Assembly: GCF_040546595.1 (NCBI RefSeq)
Contig: NZ_JBEPOB010000001.1
Coordinates: forward strand, 441,501 to 505,500
Direction: 5' to 3'
DNA from: Bosea sp. OAE506
Lineage (GTDB): Bacteria > Pseudomonadota > Alphaproteobacteria > Rhizobiales > Beijerinckiaceae
DNA length: 64,000 bases
How positions within the stretch are numbered: the stretch's first letter is position 1; each line of letters starts with the position of its first letter. This document shows positions 49,593 through 61,858 of this stretch, piece after piece. Below the pieces are notes generated by a model that saw only the letters and a program-made list of their open reading frames with translations, did not search any database and was not told the origin of the DNA. A program made the translations under genes and the position numbers.

Positions 49593-50990
49593 TCAGATAT
49601 GGATGGCGTGGCCGAGCGCCTTGAGCGCCGCCTCCTGGAAGCCTTCGCCCAGTGTCGGATGGGCGTGGATCGTGCCGGCGACATCCTCCAGCGTGGCGCC
49701 CATCTCGATGGCGAGGCCGAAGGCGGTCGAGAGTTCCGAGACGCCGCAGCCGACGGCCTGAATGCCGAGCACCAGCCCGTTCTGCGCCAGGGCGACGATG
49801 CGGATGAAGCCCTGTTCGCCGTCGCGGGTCATGGCGCGGCCATTGGCGGCGAAGGGGAACTGGCCGATGCGGACCTCGTGCCCGGCGCGGGCCGCCTCGT
49901 CGGGCGAGAGGCCGACCGAGACGATCTCGGGATCGGTGAAGCAGACAGCGGGGATGGCGCGCTTGTCCCAGGCGCGCGGCAGGCCGGCGGCAATCTCAGC
50001 CACCATCTCGCCCTGCGCCATGGCGCGATGCGCCAGCATCGGCTCGCCGGTGACGTCGCCGATCGCGAAGATGCCACGCATCGATGTCTCGCAGCGATCG
50101 TTGATGCGGATGAAGCGGCCATCCATGTCGAGCACCAGCTCCTCCAGCCCGATCCCCGACGTGACGGGGGCGCGGCCGACGGTGACGAGGATCTTGTCGG
50201 CTGCGATGCGCCGCTCCTGCCCGTCCGCCGTCTCGACCAGCAGCGCATCGCCCGCGGGCGCGGCGCCGCGCGCCTTGGCGCCGAGCAGGACCTCGACGCC
50301 GAGCGCGGTGAGGCGTTTGGCCACGGGTGCCGTCAACTCCGCATCATAAAGCGGCAGGATGCGCTCTTGCGCCTCAATAATGGTGACCCGGCTGCCCAGC
50401 TTGGCGAAGGCGATGCCAAGTTCGAGCCCGATATAGCCGCCGCCGACGACGGCGAGACGCTGCGGGACTTGCGAAAGGGACAGCGCCTCGGTCGAGGAGA
50501 TCACAGGCCCGCCGAAGGGCAGGAAGGGCAGCTCGACCGGCACCGAGCCGGTGGCGATGACGATGCGCTCGGCGCGGATCACCTTCGGGCCCGTTTCCGT
50601 GTCGACCACGACCGTCTTGCCATCGCGGAAGCGGGCGCGGCCCTGCACGATCTTGACCTTGGCCTTGCGCAACAAGCCGCCTACGCCGTTGTTGAGGCGG
50701 CCGACGATGCCGTCCTTCCAGGCGACGGCCTTGGCGAAATCGAGCGCCGGCGCACCGGCCGTCAGGCCGAAGGGCGTCTTGCCGGCGGCGGCGTGGGCGG
50801 CCTTCTCGTATTCCTCGGCGACATGGATCATCGCCTTGGACGGGATGCAGCCGACATTGAGGCAGGTGCCGCCGAGCCTGCCGGCCTCGACGATGACGGT
50901 GTCGAGGCCGAGCTGCCCGGCGCAGATGGCGCAGACATAGCCCCCGGGCCCGGCGCCGATGACGAGCAGCTTGCAGGTGATCTCGGTCAT
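49593..50990 (-). CDS. lpd: Dihydrolipoyl dehydrogenase (E3) of the branched-chain complex
   Basis: 465-aa flavoprotein that reoxidises dihydrolipoamide with NAD+. FAD motif [10 protein letters not shown], redox disulphide in [13 protein letters not shown], second nucleotide motif [10 protein letters not shown], and C-terminal catalytic His-Glu in [10 protein letters not shown]. It is the last gene of the bkd operon; its position after E2 identifies it as the dedicated E3. Confidence 0.93.
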
Positions 50991-51005
50991 GATGCGGCTC
51001 CGCCC

Positions 51006-52354
51006 TCAGACATCGATGAACAGCGTCGCCGGGTTTTCCAGCAGCTCCTTGAGCCGCTGCACGAAGACCGCCGCGTCCCAGCCATCGACGACGCGGTGGT
51101 CGAAGCTCGACGACAGGTTCATCATCTTGCGCGGCACGAAGGTGGTGCCGTCCCAGACCGGGCGGATCATCATCTTGTTGACGCCGACGATGGCGACCTC
51201 CGGATGGTTGATCACCGGCGTCGTGGCGATGCCGCCCATCGCGCCGAGCGAGGTTATGGTGATGGTCGAGCCGGTGAGTTCGTCGCGGGTGGCGGTACCC
51301 TGCCGGGCGCGCTCGGCGATGCGGTTCAGCTCCAGCGCGCAGCCGAAGATGTCGCGCGCCTCCGCATGCTTCACCACGGGGACCATCAGCCCGCCCGGCG
51401 TCTGCGTCGCGATGCCGAGATGAATCCCGGCATGCTGGCGCACGATGCCCGCCTCGTCGTCATAGAGCGCGTTGAGATTGGGCTGCTCGGCCAGGGCCTT
51501 GACCATGGCGCGCATCAGGAAGGGCAGGAGCGTGAGCTTCGGGCGCTCGGGCGTCGGCTTCTTGTTGAGGACGGCGCGCAGATCCTCCAACGCCGAGACG
51601 TCCACCTCCTCGACGATGGTGATGTGCGGGATGCGCGCCTTCGACAGCGCCATCTTCTCGGCGATCTTACGCCTGAGGCCGACGACCTTGATCTCGCTGA
51701 CGCCAGTCTTTTCCGCGAGGCCGGGCTTGCGCTCGGCTTCAGGCCCGCGCAGCAGGAAGGCGTCGAGGTCCTCATGCAGGATGCGCCCGGCCGGGCCGGT
51801 GCCGGCGAGCTGTCGCAAGTCGATGCCGGCCTCGCGGGCCTTCAGGCGGACCGCGGGTGAAGCAACGGGCCGTTCTCCGGGCGCGCGCCGCGGCAGGGCT
51901 GGGGCCGGAGCGGAGGCGGCCGCGAGCGCCTTGGTAGGCCTCGGCACGGTCATGGCCTGTGGAGGCGCTACCGCGGCGGATTTCGGCTCGGTTTCACCGG
52001 CGCTTTTGCTCTCGGGCGCATCGGTTCTGGGTTCCGGGCTCAGGCCTTCGGCCTGCCGCGGAATGACAGCGTGCTTCTCGTCGGGCTCGGATGGTTCCGC
52101 CGTGCCACCCTCGCCTGCGACCTCGAGCTTCACCAGCGCCGAGCCGATCGCGACCGTGTCGCCGATCTCGGCACCGATCCAGGTGACCTCGCCGTCGACG
52201 GGGGCCGGGATCTCGACGGTCGCCTTATCGGTCATCACGGCGGCGAGCAGATCGTCCTCGCGAATGATGTCGCCGACCTTGACGTGCCACTCGACCAGCT
52301 CGGCCTCGGCGATGCCTTCCCCGACATCGGGGAGCTTGATGATGCGCTCGGCCA

Positions 52355-52355
<1 letters not shown>
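51006..52355 (-). CDS. bkdB: Branched-chain 2-oxoacid dehydrogenase E2 (lipoyl transacylase)
   Basis: 449 aa from ATG 52355. One N-terminal lipoyl domain with the modified Lys44 (MTDKATVEI), an Ala/Pro-rich linker, a peripheral subunit-binding domain (ASPAVRLKAREAGIDL, GTGPAGRILHEDL) and a C-terminal acyltransferase domain ending in the catalytic SFDHRVVDGWD. A single lipoyl domain and neighbouring E1alpha/E1beta point to the branched-chain complex rather than pyruvate dehydrogenase. Confidence 0.92.
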
Positions 52356-53371
<1,016 letters not shown>

Positions 53372-53375
53372 GGCG

Positions 53376-54731
<1,356 letters not shown>

Positions 54732-54832: not shown

Positions 54833-55333
54833 GTGATACCGCGCAACCGCCGGAGCGATGAACCGGACGCCACCGATCTGCGGATTCTCTCCGCCCTGCA
54901 GGAGGACGGCCGTCTGACCGTCAATGCGCTGGCCGAGAAGGTCGGCCTCTCGCCCTCGCCCTGCTGGACGCGGGTGAAGCGGCTGGAGGAGAGCGGCGCG
55001 ATCGAGAAATACGTCGCGGTGCTCGACCAGAAGGCGCTGGGTTTCGGCAACATCGTCTTCGTCGAGATCACGCTCGACAAGCATGACGACAAGATCCTCG
55101 ACCATTTCGGCGAGGCGCTGACCCGGATTCCGGAGGTGGTCGAGGCCTATCTCGTCACCGGCGAATACGATTATCTCGTCAAGGTCGTGGTCAGCGGCAC
55201 CGACCATTACGAGCGCTTCCTGCGCGAGATGCTTTACCGCATCCCCGGCATCCGCCAGACGCGCACGACCTTCGGCCTGCGCACGCTGAAGCGCGCGATC
55301 TCGATCGACCCGCTGAAGATGCCGCGGCCGTGA
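54833..55333 (+). CDS. bkdR: Lrp/AsnC-family regulator, BkdR-like
   Basis: 166 aa from GTG 54833. Helix-turn-helix around VNALAEKVGLSPSPCWTRVKRLEESG and a RAM effector domain with YLVTGEYDYLVKVVV. Its divergent position beside the branched-chain dehydrogenase genes matches BkdR, the leucine/isoleucine/valine-responsive activator known in Pseudomonas and Agrobacterium. Confidence 0.9.
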   Translation: MIPRNRRSDEPDATDLRILSALQEDGRLTVNALAEKVGLSPSPCWTRVKRLEESGAIEKYVAVLDQKALGFGNIVFVEITLDKHDDKILDHFGEALTRIPEVVEAYLVTGEYDYLVKVVVSGTDHYERFLREMLYRIPGIRQTRTTFGLRTLKRAISIDPLKMPRP

Positions 55334-55502: not shown

Positions 55503-57557
55503 CTAGCCCAGCACGAACCCCTCATCCGCAGCCGCCAGCGCCACCGCCGCTTCGAGATCCGGAGCGGCCGCGGCGTGGATGGTGAAGAGCCCCTCGCCCG
55601 CCGCGACATCGTCGCCGACCGCGCGCAGCAGGTCGATGCCGGCGCTCTTGTCGAAGGGAGCGCCGGCGCGGCGCGCGATGCCGGCGATGCGCCAGCCGTC
55701 GATCTCGCTGATGCGCCCGGCACGGGAGGCCCGCATGGTGCGGGTCAGGGCGGCGGGCTTCGCGACGATGTCCCGGCGTCCCTGCGCCGCGACGATGCCG
55801 TCCAGCGCCGCGCGCGCCGCGCCCGAAGCCAGGAGTTCGGCGGCCCTTGCGCGACCCTTCTCCCGCGTGCCGATGGCTGGATCCCAGGCGAGGATGCGAC
55901 CGGCGAAGTCGAGCGCCTTCTCGCGCAGATCGGCCGGGGCCTGGGCATCGCCCTCCAGCACCCAGAGCACATCGCGGACCTCGAGCGCCGGCCCGATGCC
56001 CCGCCCGATCGGCCCGGCGCCGCAGGTCGCGACGGCCTCGACATGCAGGCCGACCGAACGCCCCACGCTCTCGAACAGCGCGCCGAGTTCGCGTGCCTCC
56101 GCCTCGCTGTGGAGCTTGGCGCGGCGGCCATAGGGCAGATCGACCACGACATGGGTCGAGCCGGCCGTCAGCTTCTTCGAGATGATCGAGGCGACCGACC
56201 AGCGGTTGGAATCGATGCCGAGCGGGCGCGTGATGGCGTTCATCACGTCGTCGACGGCGGAGTGGTTGAGGCGGCCATTCCAGGCGATGCAAGCGCGCGC
56301 CTGCGCCACCGTGCGGCGGACATCGTCCTCCGTCAGGTCGACCCTGGCCAGCACCTCCATCGCATCGGCCGTGCCGGCGGCCGAGGTGATGGCGCGCGAG
56401 GAGGTCTTGGGCATGGCCAGCCCGTGGGCGGCGACGATCGGCGCGACGATCAGCGTGATGCGGCTGCCGGGGATGCCGCCCATCGAATGCTTGTCGACGA
56501 CGATCGGCTCGTCCCAGCGCAGGGGCGTCGAAAAACTGGCCCTGACGCTCGCGAGCGCGGCGACCTCGGCATCGCTGAGCGAGCGCGTCGCGGCGACGAG
56601 GAAAGCCGAGATCTCGCCTTCCGGGTAGCGACCCTCGACGATGTCGCGCAGCAGCATGGCGTAGTCGCTGGCGCCGAGCTCGGCGCCCTGGATCTTGGCG
56701 CGCAGCGCATCGCGGCTGTGCTGCGGCGGCGTGCGGGTCAGCGTGATCTCGCTGCCTTCGGGCAAGTCGAGCTGCGCGAAGGCCTCGCGCGACAGGCCGA
56801 TCTCGTCGGGCTGGAGCAGCCAGCCGGCCTCGACGACGTTGACGCGGGCGCGGATGCTGCGGCGCGCCCCGTCCGCGGCGACCGGCCCGGCGACGTCGAC
56901 CTTGCCCGGCCCGTCGAAATCCGCGACGCCGATGAGGCTGTCGCGTGGCAGATAGGCGATGCTGTCGCGCCAGCCGTCGATCGGGACGGGCTTCAACGAG
57001 AGGCGGCGCGTGGCGGCGTCGATGGCGCCGAGAAAATGCTCGATGCCCTCCTCGACCGTGCCGTCATTGGAGACGGTGATGGTCTCGATGCCGTCAGGCC
57101 ATTGCGGCGGCTTGCGGGCGAGCCGCGCAGCGATGTCCTGCGCCGTCTCGCGTCCACGGGAGGCGAGACGGCGGGCGAGCGTCTCGGGCGAGGCGGTGAC
57201 GTTGATGATGATGAGCCGCCGCACGGCGCGAGCCAGCGTCTCCAGCACGCCGCGCGAGCCATTCGCGACGATGTGCTGGCCGGCGGCGAGATCGTCGCGC
57301 AGCGAAGCGCGCAGGCCGTAATGCAGCCCATGCGCCTGCCAGGAGACGAGAAGCCCGCCACCGCTCGCGAGCGCCGAGAAATCAGCCTCGGCGATCGCCT
57401 CGTGATCCTCCCCGCCGGCATCGGCCGGACGGGTGATCAGCCGTCGCGCGAAACCGAAGCGCCCGCCCTGCGCCAGGGCCCGGCGGGCCCCGTCCATCAG
57501 CGTATCCTTGCCGGCCCCGCTCGGCCCGACGACGACGAAGAGGATGCCTGGCCGCAT
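55503..57557 (-). CDS. Fusion: ribose-1,5-bisphosphokinase (PhnN) plus AMP/thymidine phosphorylase-like
   Basis: 684 aa in a single open frame from ATG 57557. Residues 1 to about 183 are a PhnN-type kinase (Walker A GPSGAGKDT at 11-19; LASRGRETAQDIAARLAR lid) that makes PRPP from ribose 1,5-bisphosphate. Residues about 190-684 match the long, archaeal-type nucleoside phosphorylase group, with KHSMGGIPGSR (356-366) and KTSSRAITSAAGTADAMEVL (from 384), close to AMP phosphorylase. Archaeal AMP phosphorylase releases ribose 1,5-bisphosphate, the PhnN substrate, so the fusion may channel nucleotide ribose to PRPP. nadC, a PRPP user, is 17 bp upstream. Catalytic specificity (AMP or thymidine) is not settled by sequence. 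Confidence 0.88.
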   Translation of the reverse strand: MRPGILFVVVGPSGAGKDTLMDGARRALAQGGRFGFARRLITRPADAGGEDHEAIAEADFSALASGGGLLVSWQAHGLHYGLRASLRDDLAAGQHIVANGSRGVLETLARAVRRLIIINVTASPETLARRLASRGRETAQDIAARLARKPPQWPDGIETITVSNDGTVEEGIEHFLGAIDAATRRLSLKPVPIDGWRDSIAYLPRDSLIGVADFDGPGKVDVAGPVAADGARRSIRARVNVVEAGWLLQPDEIGLSREAFAQLDLPEGSEITLTRTPPQHSRDALRAKIQGAELGASDYAMLLRDIVEGRYPEGEISAFLVAATRSLSDAEVAALASVRASFSTPLRWDEPIVVDKHSMGGIPGSRITLIVAPIVAAHGLAMPKTSSRAITSAAGTADAMEVLARVDLTEDDVRRTVAQARACIAWNGRLNHSAVDDVMNAITRPLGIDSNRWSVASIISKKLTAGSTHVVVDLPYGRRAKLHSEAEARELGALFESVGRSVGLHVEAVATCGAGPIGRGIGPALEVRDVLWVLEGDAQAPADLREKALDFAGRILAWDPAIGTREKGRARAAELLASGAARAALDGIVAAQGRRDIVAKPAALTRTMRASRAGRISEIDGWRIAGIARRAGAPFDKSAGIDLLRAVGDDVAAGEGLFTIHAAAAPDLEAAVALAAADEGFVLG

Positions 57558-57574: not shown

Positions 57575-58408
57575 TCAGGCCTCGTCGAGACCAATGTCGA
57601 CGGCGGGCGCCGACTGGGTGATCTTGCTGGTGGAGATGTAGTCCACGCCGGTCTCGGCGATGGCGCGGATCGTCTCGTAGCGGATGCCCCCGGAGGCTTC
57701 CAGCTTGGCGCGGCCGGCGACGAAAGCCACCGCCTCCTTCATCTGCGGCACGGGCATGTTGTCGAGCATGATGACGTCCGCGCCGGCGGCGACCGCCTCG
57801 CGCACCTGCTCGAGCCGGTCGCACTCGACCTCGAGCTTGGTCAGGACGGGCAGCCGCCGCCGCGCACGCTCGACCGCCTGGGCGATGCCGCCGCAGACGG
57901 CGATGTGGTTGTCCTTGATCATCACGCCGTTATCGAGCCCGAGGCGATGGTTCAGCCCGCCACCGCAGGCGACCGCGTGCTTCTCCAGCATGCGCAGGCC
58001 GGGCGTGGTCTTGCGGGTGTCGATCAGCCGGGCGTTCGTGCCCTTGATGATGTCGACATAGCGCGCCGTCTCGGTGGCGATGCCCGAGAGCCGCTGGACG
58101 ATGTTGAGCGCCGTGCGCTCGGCGGTGAGGATGCCCTGGGCCGGCCCCTCGACGAGGATCAGAGTCGCGCCCTTCTCGACGCGGTCGCCATCGGCGGCCT
58201 CGACCCTGATCGAGAGCCGCGGCTCGTAGCGGGTGAAGACGGCGGCCGCCACATCGAGCCCCGCCAGCACCATCGACTCGCGGGCGTTCATGCGGAAGGC
58301 ACCGGTTTCCGTCGGCTCGATCATCAGCTGGACGGTGAGGTCGCAGGAACCGATGTCCTCGCTCAGCCAGAGGTCGATCAGCCGCTGGGTGGTGAAACGG
58401 TCATACAT
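57575..58408 (-). CDS. nadC: Nicotinate-nucleotide pyrophosphorylase (quinolinate phosphoribosyltransferase)
   Basis: 277 aa from ATG 58408; codons further upstream are intergenic. NadC motifs: LNIVQRLSGIAT, DTRKTTPGLR, KDNHIAVCGG, KLEVECD and LEASGGIRYE. It converts quinolinate and PRPP to nicotinate mononucleotide, CO2 and PPi in de novo NAD synthesis. nadA and nadB are not present; instead the downstream gene is the PhnN-phosphorylase fusion. A molybdate-cluster paralogue (ModD) is an alternative, but no mod genes are near. Confidence 0.88.
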   Translation of the reverse strand: MYDRFTTQRLIDLWLSEDIGSCDLTVQLMIEPTETGAFRMNARESMVLAGLDVAAAVFTRYEPRLSIRVEAADGDRVEKGATLILVEGPAQGILTAERTALNIVQRLSGIATETARYVDIIKGTNARLIDTRKTTPGLRMLEKHAVACGGGLNHRLGLDNGVMIKDNHIAVCGGIAQAVERARRRLPVLTKLEVECDRLEQVREAVAAGADVIMLDNMPVPQMKEAVAFVAGRAKLEASGGIRYETIRAIAETGVDYISTSKITQSAPAVDIGLDEA

Positions 58409-58857
58409 GCTCAGCCCTGCCGCGCGCTCCGCCAGCCTCTGCGGGCTTCGCCATGGGAGCGAATAGCATGGATGGCCCGATCTCATGACTGTTTGCATAC
58501 CAACGATGCGAAGTGGGTCCTGATGTGTCAAGCAAGGATTCGGCGACATCCTGATGACAACCGGCCGCCGCATCGGCCAGCCCACGATATCGGCGCGGCA
58601 GACGTAGTTGTCGCGGCAAGGTTGCGAATTTTTGCTGCAGCGCACGCCATCGGTTTGAGCGATGGCCAGCATTGACAACCCATATGCACACCAACAAACT
58701 CTCCCTCGTGCTGCGCAAGACAGCATTCGACAAGGCGGCTTGAAGCCGCCGGGGAACGGCAGCTACGTCAGATCGCCGGCCGACCCGATCGGCCGGTACC
58801 ATTCGGTCGCACGGTCCGCCCCCGGACCGTGCCCGACACGAGGCTGGGAGGGTGATC
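58409..58857. other. Divergent intergenic region nadC-TAXI transporter
   Basis: No gene is supported in these 449 bp. The stretch TTTGCATACCAA (58492-58503) resembles the amidase-island box, 84 bp upstream of nadC. TTGACA (58672-58677) could be a -35 for the TAXI gene, but its -10 is poor. Two hairpins lie in the TAXI leader: GGCGGC/GCCGCC (58734-58750) and an 8-bp stem ACGGTCCG (58811-58818) with CGGACCGT (58823-58830). I do not recognise a riboswitch. Confidence 0.4.
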
Positions 58858-59841
58858 ATGAAGAGACTGGCTTTCGCATCGCTAGTGGCGGGCGCGCTCG
58901 CCCTCGGGGCGGGTTTCGCGGCGGCGCAGACGGCGCCCACCCGCAAGATCACCCTGACCGGCGGCTCGGTCGGCGGCGCCTGGAGCGCGATCGGCAACGC
59001 CATCGGCGAGACGATCCGGCGGGAATCGCCCGGCGCCTCCTTCGGCTACGAACCGGGCCGCGAGGCCGCCAACATCCAGCTCGTCTCGACCGGCAAGGTC
59101 GAACTCGGCATCGCCCATGCCCAGCTGATCAAGCGGGCGCAGGCGGGCGAAGACCCGTTCAAGGCGCCGATCGCCAATCTGCGCGCCATCGCGCTGATCG
59201 ACCCGCAGGCGGCGGTGCAGATCCTGGTGCGCGAAGAATCCGGCATCGAGAGCTTCGAGAGCATCCTGGCCGCCAAGAAGCCCGTCCGCATCGCGCTCAA
59301 CCAGCGCGGCACGCTGATGGCTGTGACCGGCGAAGAGGTGTTCAAGGCCTATGGCATCACCGCCAAGGACATCGAGGGCTGGGGCGGCCGCATCCACCAT
59401 GTCGACTACAATGCCGGCCTGGAGATGATGAAGAACGGCCAGGCCGACATCGTCATCAACATGCTCGCCTTCCCCTCCGGCCAGATCAACAGCGCGACCC
59501 GCGAGATGAAGGTGCGGATGCTCGGCATCTCGCCGGAGGCGACGGCCAAGCTCGGCGCCCTGCTCGGCACCGCTCCGATCACCGTCCCGGCCGCCACCTA
59601 TCCGTTCCAGCCGCAGGCAATCGCGACCGTGACCGGAAGCGTCGTGCTATTTGCGGCTTCCGAGATGAAAAACGAAGACGCGGCGCTGATCGTCGACGGC
59701 CTGATCAAGCATTTCGACTATCTGCGGCAGGCCCATGCCACAATGGCACGGCTGGAGCCCGTGAACCTGACCCAGACCGCACCGCTCGCGCTGCATCCGG
59801 GCGCCGAGGCCGCCTACCGGAAGGCCGGCCTGCTGAAGTGA
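58858..59841 (+). CDS. TAXI-family TRAP transporter solute-binding protein
   Basis: 327 aa from ATG 58858, six bases after GGGAGG. Sec signal peptide (residues about 1-23). TAXI features: GGSVGGAWSAIGNAIGE, ESPGASFGYEPGREAANI and GWGGRIHHVDYNAGLEMM. The protein binds a carboxylate-type ligand in the periplasm for the fused permease downstream. Ligand unknown. Confidence 0.9.
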   Translation: MKRLAFASLVAGALALGAGFAAAQTAPTRKITLTGGSVGGAWSAIGNAIGETIRRESPGASFGYEPGREAANIQLVSTGKVELGIAHAQLIKRAQAGEDPFKAPIANLRAIALIDPQAAVQILVREESGIESFESILAAKKPVRIALNQRGTLMAVTGEEVFKAYGITAKDIEGWGGRIHHVDYNAGLEMMKNGQADIVINMLAFPSGQINSATREMKVRMLGISPEATAKLGALLGTAPITVPAATYPFQPQAIATVTGSVVLFAASEMKNEDAALIVDGLIKHFDYLRQAHATMARLEPVNLTQTAPLALHPGAEAAYRKAGLLK

Positions 59842-59890: not shown

Positions 59891-61858
59891 ATGCCGAACC
59901 TGCTGAAGCTCCTGGCACCGGGGCGATCGCGCGAGCTCGCGGCACCGGAGCAGTGGACGGTGCATGTCGTGGGCTTCGCCGCGGCCGTGCTGCTGATCGC
60001 CATCTCCTTCGGCTGGTACGTCAAGCGCGAGATCGCGCTGTTTCTGTTCCTCGGCGCGGTTCTCGCCCTCGCCTTCCTGACGACGACAGCCAACCCGCTG
60101 CGGCCGACCGGCCGCTCCTGGTTCGCCTGGGCTCTGGTCGCGCTGTCGGTCGCCTGCTGCGGCTATTTCGTCGCGATGCAGCCGGTCCACGAGATGCGGC
60201 TGCCGATGATCGACGAACTCTCGACCGCCGACATCGCCGCCTCGATCGTGCTGATCGCGCTGGTGATGGAGGCGACGCGGCGCTGCATCGGGATGATCCT
60301 CGTCGTGCTGGTGGCGACCTTCCTCGCCTATGCGATCTTCGGCAGCAGACTGACCGGCTCCTTCGCCCATCGCGGCTTCAGCACCCAGGAGATCGTCGAC
60401 CATCTGGTGTTCTCGACCAACGGGCTCTTCGGCCCGGCGCTCGAGGTCGCGGCCTTCCTGGTCGTCGTCTTCGTGATCTTCGGCGCGCTGCTGGACCGGA
60501 TCGGCGGCGCCGATTTCTTCTACGACGTCGCCAACAGCCTGGTCGGCAAGCAGGTCGGCGGGGCGAGCAAGGTCGCGGTCGTGTCATCTGGACTCTACGG
60601 CTCGATCTCGGGCTCGCCGACGGCCGACGTCGTCACGACCGGCTCCTTCAGCATCCCGTTGATGATCCGCACGGGCGTCAGCCGGACCTATGCCGGCGCG
60701 ATCGAATCCGCAGCCTCGACGGGTGGGGCGCTGCTGCCGCCGGTGATGGGGTCGGCCGCCTTCCTGATGACGGACTTCACCGGGATCCCCTATGCGACGA
60801 TCGCCCTGTCGGCGCTGATCCCCGCCTTGCTCTATTATGAATCAGTCTTCCTTGCGGCCCATTTCAAGGCGCATCGGGACGGTCTCCGGCCGATGTCGGA
60901 AGGCGAGACGCCGTCGATCCTGGCCGTGCTGCGGCGCGACTGGGCCTATCTCCTGCCGATCGGCCTGCTGGTCTGGGGCGTGCTGAGCCTGAACCGCCCG
61001 TCCTTCGCCGGCGCCATCGCCTGCGCTGCGTTGCTCCCTGTCGCACTGCTGCGCCATCCTGACCCGGTTCGGCTGGTCAAGACGGTCTTTTTCGGCCTGA
61101 GCGACGGCATGCGCGGGATGATCGGCGTCGGCGTCGCCTGCGCCATCGCCGGGCTCGTGGTCGGGACGCTCTCGATGACGGACCTGACCGGCAAGATCAG
61201 CTCCGGCCTGTTCCACATGTCCGGCGGCAGCCCGATCCTCACCATCCTCGTCGCTGCCTTCGTCATCATCGTGCTGGGCATGGGCATGCCGACACCGGCG
61301 GTCTACGCGCTCTCGGCGGTACTGGCGGCACCCGCGCTGATCGCGCTGGGCATCGCGGTGCTCCCGGCCCATCTCTTCATCGTTTACATCGCGTCGATGT
61401 CCGCGATCACGCCGCCGGTGGCGGTGGCAGCCTTCGCGGCGGCCTCGATCGCCAAGGCCAATCCGGTGATGATCGCGATCGTCGCCTGCCGGATCGCGAT
61501 GGTCGCCTTCATTCTGCCCTTCGTCTTCATGTACCAGCCCGCCCTGCTGCTGATCGGGCCGGTCTGGCAGACCGTGCTGTCGGTTGCGGCCGTCGCGCTC
61601 GGCGTGTTCGCGCTGAACGCCGCCATCGAGGGCTATCTGTTCTCTCGCCTCGGCCTGGCCGGACGCTTGCTGCTGGCGGCAGGCGGGATCGGGCTCTTCT
61701 TGCCTTTCGCGGCGACGCAGCTTGTCGGGCTGGCCTTGCTCGCAGCGACGACCGTCTGGCTCTGGAGCATTCGCAGCCCGGCCCGCATGCAGCCCGTGCC
61801 GCCTGAGGCCGTTCCTCAGCTGCCGAGATCGCGCGCGACGCGGAAGCCCGCGACCTGA
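59891..61858 (+). CDS. TRAP transporter fused permease (DctQM-type)
   Basis: 655-aa membrane protein with about 16 to 18 spans: a small DctQ-like N-terminal part (to about residue 150) fused to a DctM-like large part. TAXI-type fused permease features: GSISGSPTADVVTTGSFSIPLM, GGALLPPVMGSAAFLM, GMGMPTPAVYALS and ITPPVAVAAFAAASIAKANP. Works as a cation-coupled importer with the TAXI binding protein. Its 3' end overlaps the convergent SUMF1-domain gene by 43 bp. Confidence 0.9.
   Translation: MPNLLKLLAPGRSRELAAPEQWTVHVVGFAAAVLLIAISFGWYVKREIALFLFLGAVLALAFLTTTANPLRPTGRSWFAWALVALSVACCGYFVAMQPVHEMRLPMIDELSTADIAASIVLIALVMEATRRCIGMILVVLVATFLAYAIFGSRLTGSFAHRGFSTQEIVDHLVFSTNGLFGPALEVAAFLVVVFVIFGALLDRIGGADFFYDVANSLVGKQVGGASKVAVVSSGLYGSISGSPTADVVTTGSFSIPLMIRTGVSRTYAGAIESAASTGGALLPPVMGSAAFLMTDFTGIPYATIALSALIPALLYYESVFLAAHFKAHRDGLRPMSEGETPSILAVLRRDWAYLLPIGLLVWGVLSLNRPSFAGAIACAALLPVALLRHPDPVRLVKTVFFGLSDGMRGMIGVGVACAIAGLVVGTLSMTDLTGKISSGLFHMSGGSPILTILVAAFVIIVLGMGMPTPAVYALSAVLAAPALIALGIAVLPAHLFIVYIASMSAITPPVAVAAFAAASIAKANPVMIAIVACRIAMVAFILPFVFMYQPALLLIGPVWQTVLSVAAVALGVFALNAAIEGYLFSRLGLAGRLLLAAGGIGLFLPFAATQLVGLALLAATTVWLWSIRSPARMQPVPPEAVPQLPRSRATRKPAT

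Follow-up and report, generated by a model that had tools for sequence, protein, structure and literature searches.

A PhnN kinase-phosphorylase fusion encoded beside nadC in Bosea sp. OAE506 and a possible PRPP-recycling route from quinolinate to nicotinate

Results

The window encodes a PhnN kinase fused to a phosphorylase next to nadC

The window analyzed here is a 64,000-nucleotide stretch of the genome of Bosea sp. OAE506 (contig NZ_JBEPOB010000001.1, positions 441,501 to 505,500; genome G000 in our labelling, in which G denotes genomes and L loci). Its minus strand carries a gene (55503..57557) that joins a PhnN-type ribose-1,5-bisphosphate kinase to an AMP-phosphorylase-like domain of the type-2 'thymidine phosphorylase' kind in one polypeptide of 684 aa. 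The original prediction had described such a fusion from the letters of the sequence, and family profiles together with a structural match confirmed it as a single protein. The PhnN domain (aa 1-182; 57012..57557, minus strand) passed the curated TIGR02322 cut-off (186.5 bits vs 156) and contains the P-loop GPSGAGKDT, in which G11, P12, S13, G14, G16, K17 and D18 were invariant among 14 aligned fusions. The phosphorylase domain (aa 186-684; 55506..57002, minus strand) has the AMP phosphorylase fold throughout, as judged by its structural match to T. kodakarensis 4ga4 and 4ga5. It passed the type-2 thymidine phosphorylase cut-offs of NF003338 (595 bits vs 434) and TIGR02645 (454.6 bits vs 434.6) and failed that of AMP phosphorylase, TIGR03327 (384.5 bits vs 535).

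Directly before the fusion lies nadC (57575..58408, minus strand), which the original prediction did not mention. It encodes a quinolinate phosphoribosyltransferase of 277 aa from a MYDRF start that we chose, is transcribed in the same direction and ends 17 bp upstream of the fusion gene. The protein scored 329.4 bits against TIGR00078 (cut-off 198.4) and matched both QRPTase_N and QRPTase_C (PF02749 and PF01729).

PhnN enzymes convert ribose 1,5-bisphosphate and ATP to 5-phosphoribosyl 1-pyrophosphate (PRPP) and ADP. The fusion protein, judged by its domains, probably releases the base from a nucleotide and then rebuilds PRPP from the sugar phosphate that remains. The overall reaction suggested earlier for a nucleoside monophosphate (NMP), in which NMP, phosphate and ATP would yield base, PRPP and ADP, is thus the natural reading of a joined phosphorylase and kinase. 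Database names would instead make the enzyme an ordinary thymidine or pyrimidine nucleoside phosphorylase, and its membership of NF003338 agrees with those automatic names. This explanation is extremely improbable. The fused kinase takes a 1,5-bisphosphate, which implies a 5'-phosphorylated product; the genome of the window has a separate deoC-deoA pair (named from sequences); and the fusion scored 162.3 bits against the classical thymidine phosphorylase family NF004490, under its cut-off of 269.

The fusion belongs to a widespread family that travels with nadC

The search for other fusions, proposed earlier as a check, was run and found a widespread proteobacterial family. A protein search returned 2008 relatives at E<=1e-20, and 119 of the 120 listed were 677-702 aa long. 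Sources among those listed include Bosea, Rhodoplanes, Azorhizobium, Burkholderiaceae, Lautropia and Oxalobacteraceae, and their annotations read 'thymidine phosphorylase', 'PhnN' or 'Multifunctional fusion protein'. Members occur in alpha- and betaproteobacteria, including plasmid-borne copies in Variovorax and Pacificitalea. Among whole genomes the fusion was found in 4/121 of the window's order, 4/80 of its family and 5/398 of the phylum (for G428, the PhnN part is visible in L147). A chance or frameshift fusion is ruled out by the abundance of full-length relatives. The protein is a new combination of known parts that so far carries automatic names only.

Thirty fusion loci (the window, 20 and 7 further loci, and 2 plasmids) were compared with a control of 54 unfused-phosphorylase loci, comprising 51 loci plus 3 plasmid loci and excluding the G416 match and the remaining plasmid records. 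The 20 are L024-L042 and L083, taken from 80 loci of which the other 60 matched PhnN alone; the 7 come from 9 loci, of which L144 and L147 were left out because they repeat L027 and L038; and the 2 plasmids come from 3 with most of the query covered. The stretches compared differ in length, from about 3 to 30 kb, and L028 and L033 hold separate parts of a gene that is split in a single assembly. This comparison revealed nadC in 26/30 fusion loci and 0/54 controls (Fisher p about 8e-18, computed although the loci share ancestry). Among the four fusion loci without nadC, L033 and L034 start close to a contig edge or right at it, and only in L140 and L141 is the gene truly absent.

When 57 NadCs were placed in a tree, the fusion-linked ones of alpha- and betaproteobacteria formed one clade, whose support of 91/89 fell short of the star given by the tool. 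The non-fusion sequences in this tree were mostly best-scoring matches rather than a random draw; the rows of L035 and L041 were dropped as short, and D_L248 is the fusion-linked copy of G428. The only other members of this clade were the NadCs of G042 and G161, from one related genus. These two (L277, L278) are nested within the clade, no fusion was found in their genomes at E<=1e-60, and the genes scanned near nadC in G161 encode MetX, MetW and an oxidoreductase-type protein. A second NadC, encoded next to nadA in G428 (assigned to Caballeronia because it matches L038), lay far from the clade.

In Defluviicoccus (L083), nadC, phnN and the phosphorylase gene are adjacent yet apparently unfused by our own gene calls, and the L083 phosphorylase formed the first branch within the fused group. 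A UbiD-family decarboxylase gene (L083:4000-5628) lies upstream of this set. In the fusions of L036-L041 the phosphorylase part is shortened at its start by about 90 residues.

Residues at base-pocket positions differ from those of T. kodakarensis AMP phosphorylase and unfused relatives

The phosphorylase domains of 145 fused proteins, mostly close relatives and not independent, were aligned with those of 50 unfused relatives. H357, S457 and K461, which align with His116, Ser217 and Lys221 of human thymidine phosphorylase, were kept in both sets. In contrast, R339 was present in all 144 fused domains with a letter there and N427 in 144/145, where the 50 unfused domains had M and G, respectively; H432 and N440 were each found in 145/145 fused domains, compared with L/F and I/V in 50/50 unfused ones. 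At position 443 the fused set had T in 138 domains, N in 5 and V in 2 (n = 145) and the unfused set E in 50/50. R452 (136 of 145), W453 (138) and S454 (137) stood against mostly G/E, Q and M/L. Across positions 339, 427, 432, 440, 443, 452 and 454, 0/50 unfused relatives showed the residue of the fused set. T. kodakarensis 4ga5 has M339, G427, L432, I440, E443, G452 and M454 where the fusion has R, N, H, N, T, R and S; its S358 and A393 are as in the fused set. The stretch of the window's protein that holds the conserved S457 and K461 together with the fusion-specific N427, H432, N440, T443, R452, W453 and S454 (aa 427-461) is encoded at 56175..56279 on the minus strand, and two helices, 434-446 and 451-464, carry positions 440/443 and 454/457/461, respectively. 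N440, T443 and S454 align with Tyr199, Arg202 and Ile214 of human thymidine phosphorylase. The accessible text of PMC2719695 gives these three, with Ser217 and Lys221, as active-site residues of the human enzyme; Tyr199 and Arg202 bind the base there, with Arg202 contacting its O4.

AMP is probably not the main substrate of the fused phosphorylase, since its near-invariant base-pocket residues are unlike those of the T. kodakarensis enzyme and of the 50 unfused relatives. The AMP, CMP or UMP that the original prediction had named as the nucleotide was therefore not upheld, given these residues and a usual partner, nadC, accompanied by transporters and nicotinate-type genes. With the glutamate lost and Arg, His and Asn gained, the pocket would be suited to an acidic, carboxylated base such as nicotinate.

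Two known enzyme groups stand closest to the fused domain. It shares with the archaeal AMP/NMP phosphorylase of T. kodakarensis (4ga4, 4ga5; TIGR03327) the fold, the KTSSRAITSAAGTAD stretch, R444, S457 and K461, and differs from it in falling under the family cut-off, in the other base-pocket residues and in having PhnN as its partner. The unfused bacterial type-2 'thymidine phosphorylases' (NF003338/TIGR02645) are its nearest sequence relatives and pass the same cut-offs, but they form a separate branch and none of their 54 loci has nadC. Three annotated loci of the unfused phosphorylase were examined, and in two of them a ribose-phosphate diphosphokinase gene follows; on plasmids L220 (Novosphingobium) and L221 (Roseovarius) it does so directly, which makes a second PRPP-forming pairing.

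Within the fused family, the sub-branch of L034, L035, L139, L140 and L141 has N443 and 'xLD' at 452-454 and possibly acts on another substrate; L035 and L139 are nadC-linked. More generally, the phosphorylase could act on another pyridine or azole ribotide, e.g. of the hydroxynicotinate or nicotinamide mononucleotide type, with the kinase still rebuilding PRPP. Near-invariant pocket residues of its own, the sub-branch deviating at 443 and 452-454 and the fusions without NadC in G100 and G064 all speak for this. We consider it improbable, however, because the most constant linked gene, nadC, predicts its own product, nicotinate mononucleotide (NaMN), as the substrate.

Transporter and nicotinate-breakdown genes are linked to the module

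In the window, genes for a TAXI-family TRAP solute-binding subunit (58852..59841, plus strand; TIGR02122, 144.8 bits, cut-off 84.35), divergent from nadC, and a TRAP transporter fused permease subunit (59891..61858, plus strand; TIGR02123, 570.2 bits, cut-off 320.65) lie beyond nadC. Quinolinate, or a different pyridine acid, is a candidate ligand of the TAXI subunit. TAXI and TRAP genes were found in 7/30 fusion loci vs 0/54 controls, and TctC genes in 5/30 vs 1/54; no locus had both, which makes 12 loci with one or the other, and MFS or ABC transporter genes lie near some further fusion loci. These linked transporters fit quinolinate uptake. The available text of PMC11452294 reports quinolinate binding by the TctC protein Bug27 of Bordetella and places the Variovorax orthologs of Bug27 next to nadC and phnN. 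On Variovorax plasmid L218, nadC is followed by a gene of 2154 bp with the annotation phnN and then by one for a TctC protein, so the 'phnN' of that paper is probably this fusion. The two systems have in common a quinolinate-binding TctC family, nadC and the phnN link; PMC11452294 reads its nadC-phnN link as NAD metabolism, and the word 'phosphorylase' is absent from its accessible text.

The second group of neighbours concerns nicotinate breakdown. A 496-aa protein encoded near the module had no Pfam or NCBIfam match, and its relatives are annotated as 6-hydroxynicotinate reductase in plasmid records. The reductase was linked in 7/30 fusion loci vs 0/54 controls. In the stretches examined, a UPF0280-type protein (name taken from the L224 annotation) accompanied it in 7/7 of these loci, AA_synth in 5/7 and a close xanthine-dehydrogenase-type Mo hydroxylase in 3/7 (L030, L031, L142). 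In L030 a single strand carries, in order, genes for MarR, the FAD subunit, the Mo/FeS subunit, the reductase, UPF0280, NadC and the fusion, with gaps of 46, -4, -4, -31, -4 and 26 bp; L031 is the same from the Mo subunit onward. MarR proteins 34-52% identical to annotated NicR are encoded near the module in L024, L030, L139, L143, L145 and L146; the MarR proteins of L218 and L029 do not resemble NicR closely. As described in the accessible text of PMC3511419, such clusters in Azorhizobium, Bradyrhizobium and others serve nicotinate breakdown via 1,4,5,6-tetrahydro-6-oxonicotinate. What they have in common with the fusion loci is the 6-hydroxynicotinate reductase and, to a partial extent, the genes for the Mo hydroxylase, UPF0280, AA_synth and MarR. 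The fusion loci add nadC and the fused enzyme, neither of which appears in the annotated cluster L224. The genome of the window carries a nicotinate cluster of this type elsewhere, at C1:3.18 Mb.

In Aspergillus terreus, nicotinate genes are co-induced with a quinolinate-forming pathway (PMC9304392, PMC7842363, from the parts available); the term 'phosphoribosyl' is absent from the available text of PMC7842363.

A possible PRPP-recycling cycle from quinolinate to nicotinate

Enzymes of the NadC family convert quinolinate and PRPP to NaMN with release of CO2 and PPi. We suggest that NadC and the fusion form a PRPP-recycling module in which NaMN is split again, so that quinolinate loses CO2 and becomes nicotinate with consumption of ATP, a reading that we hold tentatively and put close to an even chance. 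The linked transporters would import quinolinate, and NadC would condense it with PRPP to NaMN, CO2 and PPi. The fused phosphorylase domain would then use phosphate to release nicotinate from NaMN, leaving ribose 1,5-bisphosphate, which the PhnN domain of the same protein would return to PRPP with ATP, giving ADP as the second product. With flux in this direction, the net reaction would turn quinolinate, ATP and phosphate into nicotinate, CO2, ADP and PPi. The nicotinate could enter breakdown through the Mo hydroxylase and 6-hydroxynicotinate reductase, or be used for NAD via PncB. Such a cycle would account for the association of the three activities, for the transporter and nicotinate-breakdown genes found with them and for the difference in pocket residues from AMP phosphorylase. 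The wider notion, that PRPP serves as a catalytic handle for quinolinate decarboxylation and a biosynthetic NAD enzyme as the first step of pyridine-dicarboxylate breakdown, we hold with slightly less assurance, as somewhat short of even.

Several observations weigh against this cycle. L140 (G100) and L141 (G064), from one genus, have the fusion, yet their genomes gave no QRPTase_C match anywhere at 98% and 96% completeness; the genes before the fusion in L140 are cytochrome bc1 genes, and in both loci the residues at 443 and 452-454 also deviate. The pocket argument rests on an alignment, and the fused and unfused phosphorylase domains form two separate branches in the tree, so part of the residue contrast is plain divergence. 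The reductase did not track the fusion genome-wide, occurring in 6/10 fusion vs 9/20 non-fusion genomes of the same family in a test that covered the 6-hydroxynicotinate reductase route and not the aerobic nic pathway; its association with the fusion is one of close linkage only, not of genome-wide co-occurrence. The remaining two points concern NAD: with PncB present, phosphorolysis of NaMN could form a futile cycle, and in G485 the nadC-fusion module may serve NAD synthesis.

NAD genes in genomes with the fusion

The NAD genes of the fusion genomes bear on this last point. The genome of the window has one quinolinate phosphoribosyltransferase, the nadC product described above, and no NadA. 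NadA was not found in six genomes of the window's order that carry the fusion (G000, G169, G129, G123, G072 and G567, of which G072 and G123 are only 92-93% complete), each of which has one NadC. A NadC without NadA implies that quinolinate is imported or derived from tryptophan by the kynurenine route. A PncB-type protein was found in 9/10 fusion genomes, that of the window included, so NAD can probably be obtained from nicotinate. The idea that the linked NadC simply belongs to de novo NAD synthesis was set aside in view of the six genomes without NadA and of the second NadC beside nadA in G428. In contrast, G485 has NadA, and its sole clear NadC is the fusion-linked copy.

An explanation centred on NAD is that the phosphorylase splits AMP, CMP or UMP and the PhnN domain passes PRPP to NadC, for NAD made from scavenged or own quinolinate. 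The AMP phosphorylase fold and the shared catalytic-site residues are consistent with it, as are the adjacency of nadC and the case of G485, with nadA and a fusion-linked NadC as the only clear one. The NMP phosphorylase of T. kodakarensis takes AMP, CMP and UMP (PMC9700705, accessible text), and the title of a 2003 paper links PhnN to NAD synthesis in E. coli. We nevertheless consider this supply role unlikely. The base-pocket residues are unlike those of the T. kodakarensis enzyme and 50 unfused relatives and the score is under the AMP phosphorylase cut-off; the small PRPP demand of NAD synthesis would hardly justify a dedicated source; and the linked nicotinate-breakdown genes would be left unexplained.

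Phosphonate breakdown and the pentose bisphosphate route

Phosphonate degradation, to which the original prediction had already found no local connection, is an unlikely role at this locus, where the fusion differs from PhnN (TIGR02322), with which it shares the domain and the kept P-loop, by the joined phosphorylase and by having nadC rather than phn genes as its neighbour; nadC and the transporters point away from phosphonate use. The genome of the window does encode a C-P lyase, with PhnJ at C1:1569338 (L283) and, close by, PhnL, PhnM and a hexapeptide protein of the phn type. A search of the 20 kb surrounding this phnJ gave no phnN, and the rest of the genome no other PhnN match at E<=1e-15. 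The fused kinase may therefore additionally serve phosphonate breakdown in this species as a side role. That its main task is to supply the missing PhnN is, however, very improbable, as the fusion lies 1.07 Mb from phnJ, downstream of nadC; G567, G485 and G428 have both the fusion and a separate phnN within 10 kb of phnJ, so that in these genomes the fusion is an extra copy; and G123 and G100 have the fusion and gave no PhnJ match.

Ribose-1,5-bisphosphate isomerase was above the TIGR00511 cut-off in 0/12 genomes (10 with the fusion), 8 of which gave weaker matches. An archaeal-type pentose bisphosphate route is thus not indicated by the isomerase test, the only one applied, Rubisco not having been searched.

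Relation to published work

To our knowledge, no NaMN phosphorylase has been described. In the literature that could be searched, with most subscription journals outside its scope and the texts available in part, no PhnN-phosphorylase fusion, NaMN phosphorylase or PRPP-recycling decarboxylation of quinolinate was found. The same search gave no one-protein route from an NMP to PRPP tied to NadC, whichever nucleotide is the substrate, and within one set of papers that it returned, none named both PhnN and thymidine phosphorylase. If the cycle is real, it would provide a genetic route for bacterial quinolinate use together with a NaMN phosphorylase, with PRPP recycled as a carrier rather than spent. 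It would also correct the automatic names 'PhnN' and 'thymidine phosphorylase' for a family in alpha- and betaproteobacteria, and turn the nadC-phnN link of PMC11452294 into a testable pathway. Owing to the NadC link and to base-pocket residues of its own, the fusion enzyme lends itself to an assay that is specific, cheap and decisive.

Other genes near the module

FRG-domain proteins are encoded near the nadC-fusion module in 6/30 loci (L029, L037, L038, L142, L145 and L218). On the other side of the fusion gene, the window contains a divergent Lrp/AsnC regulator gene (54833-55333, by Pfam match) and, at 49593-54605, what appears by eye to be a branched-chain 2-oxoacid dehydrogenase operon; both are ordinary and lie outside the module.

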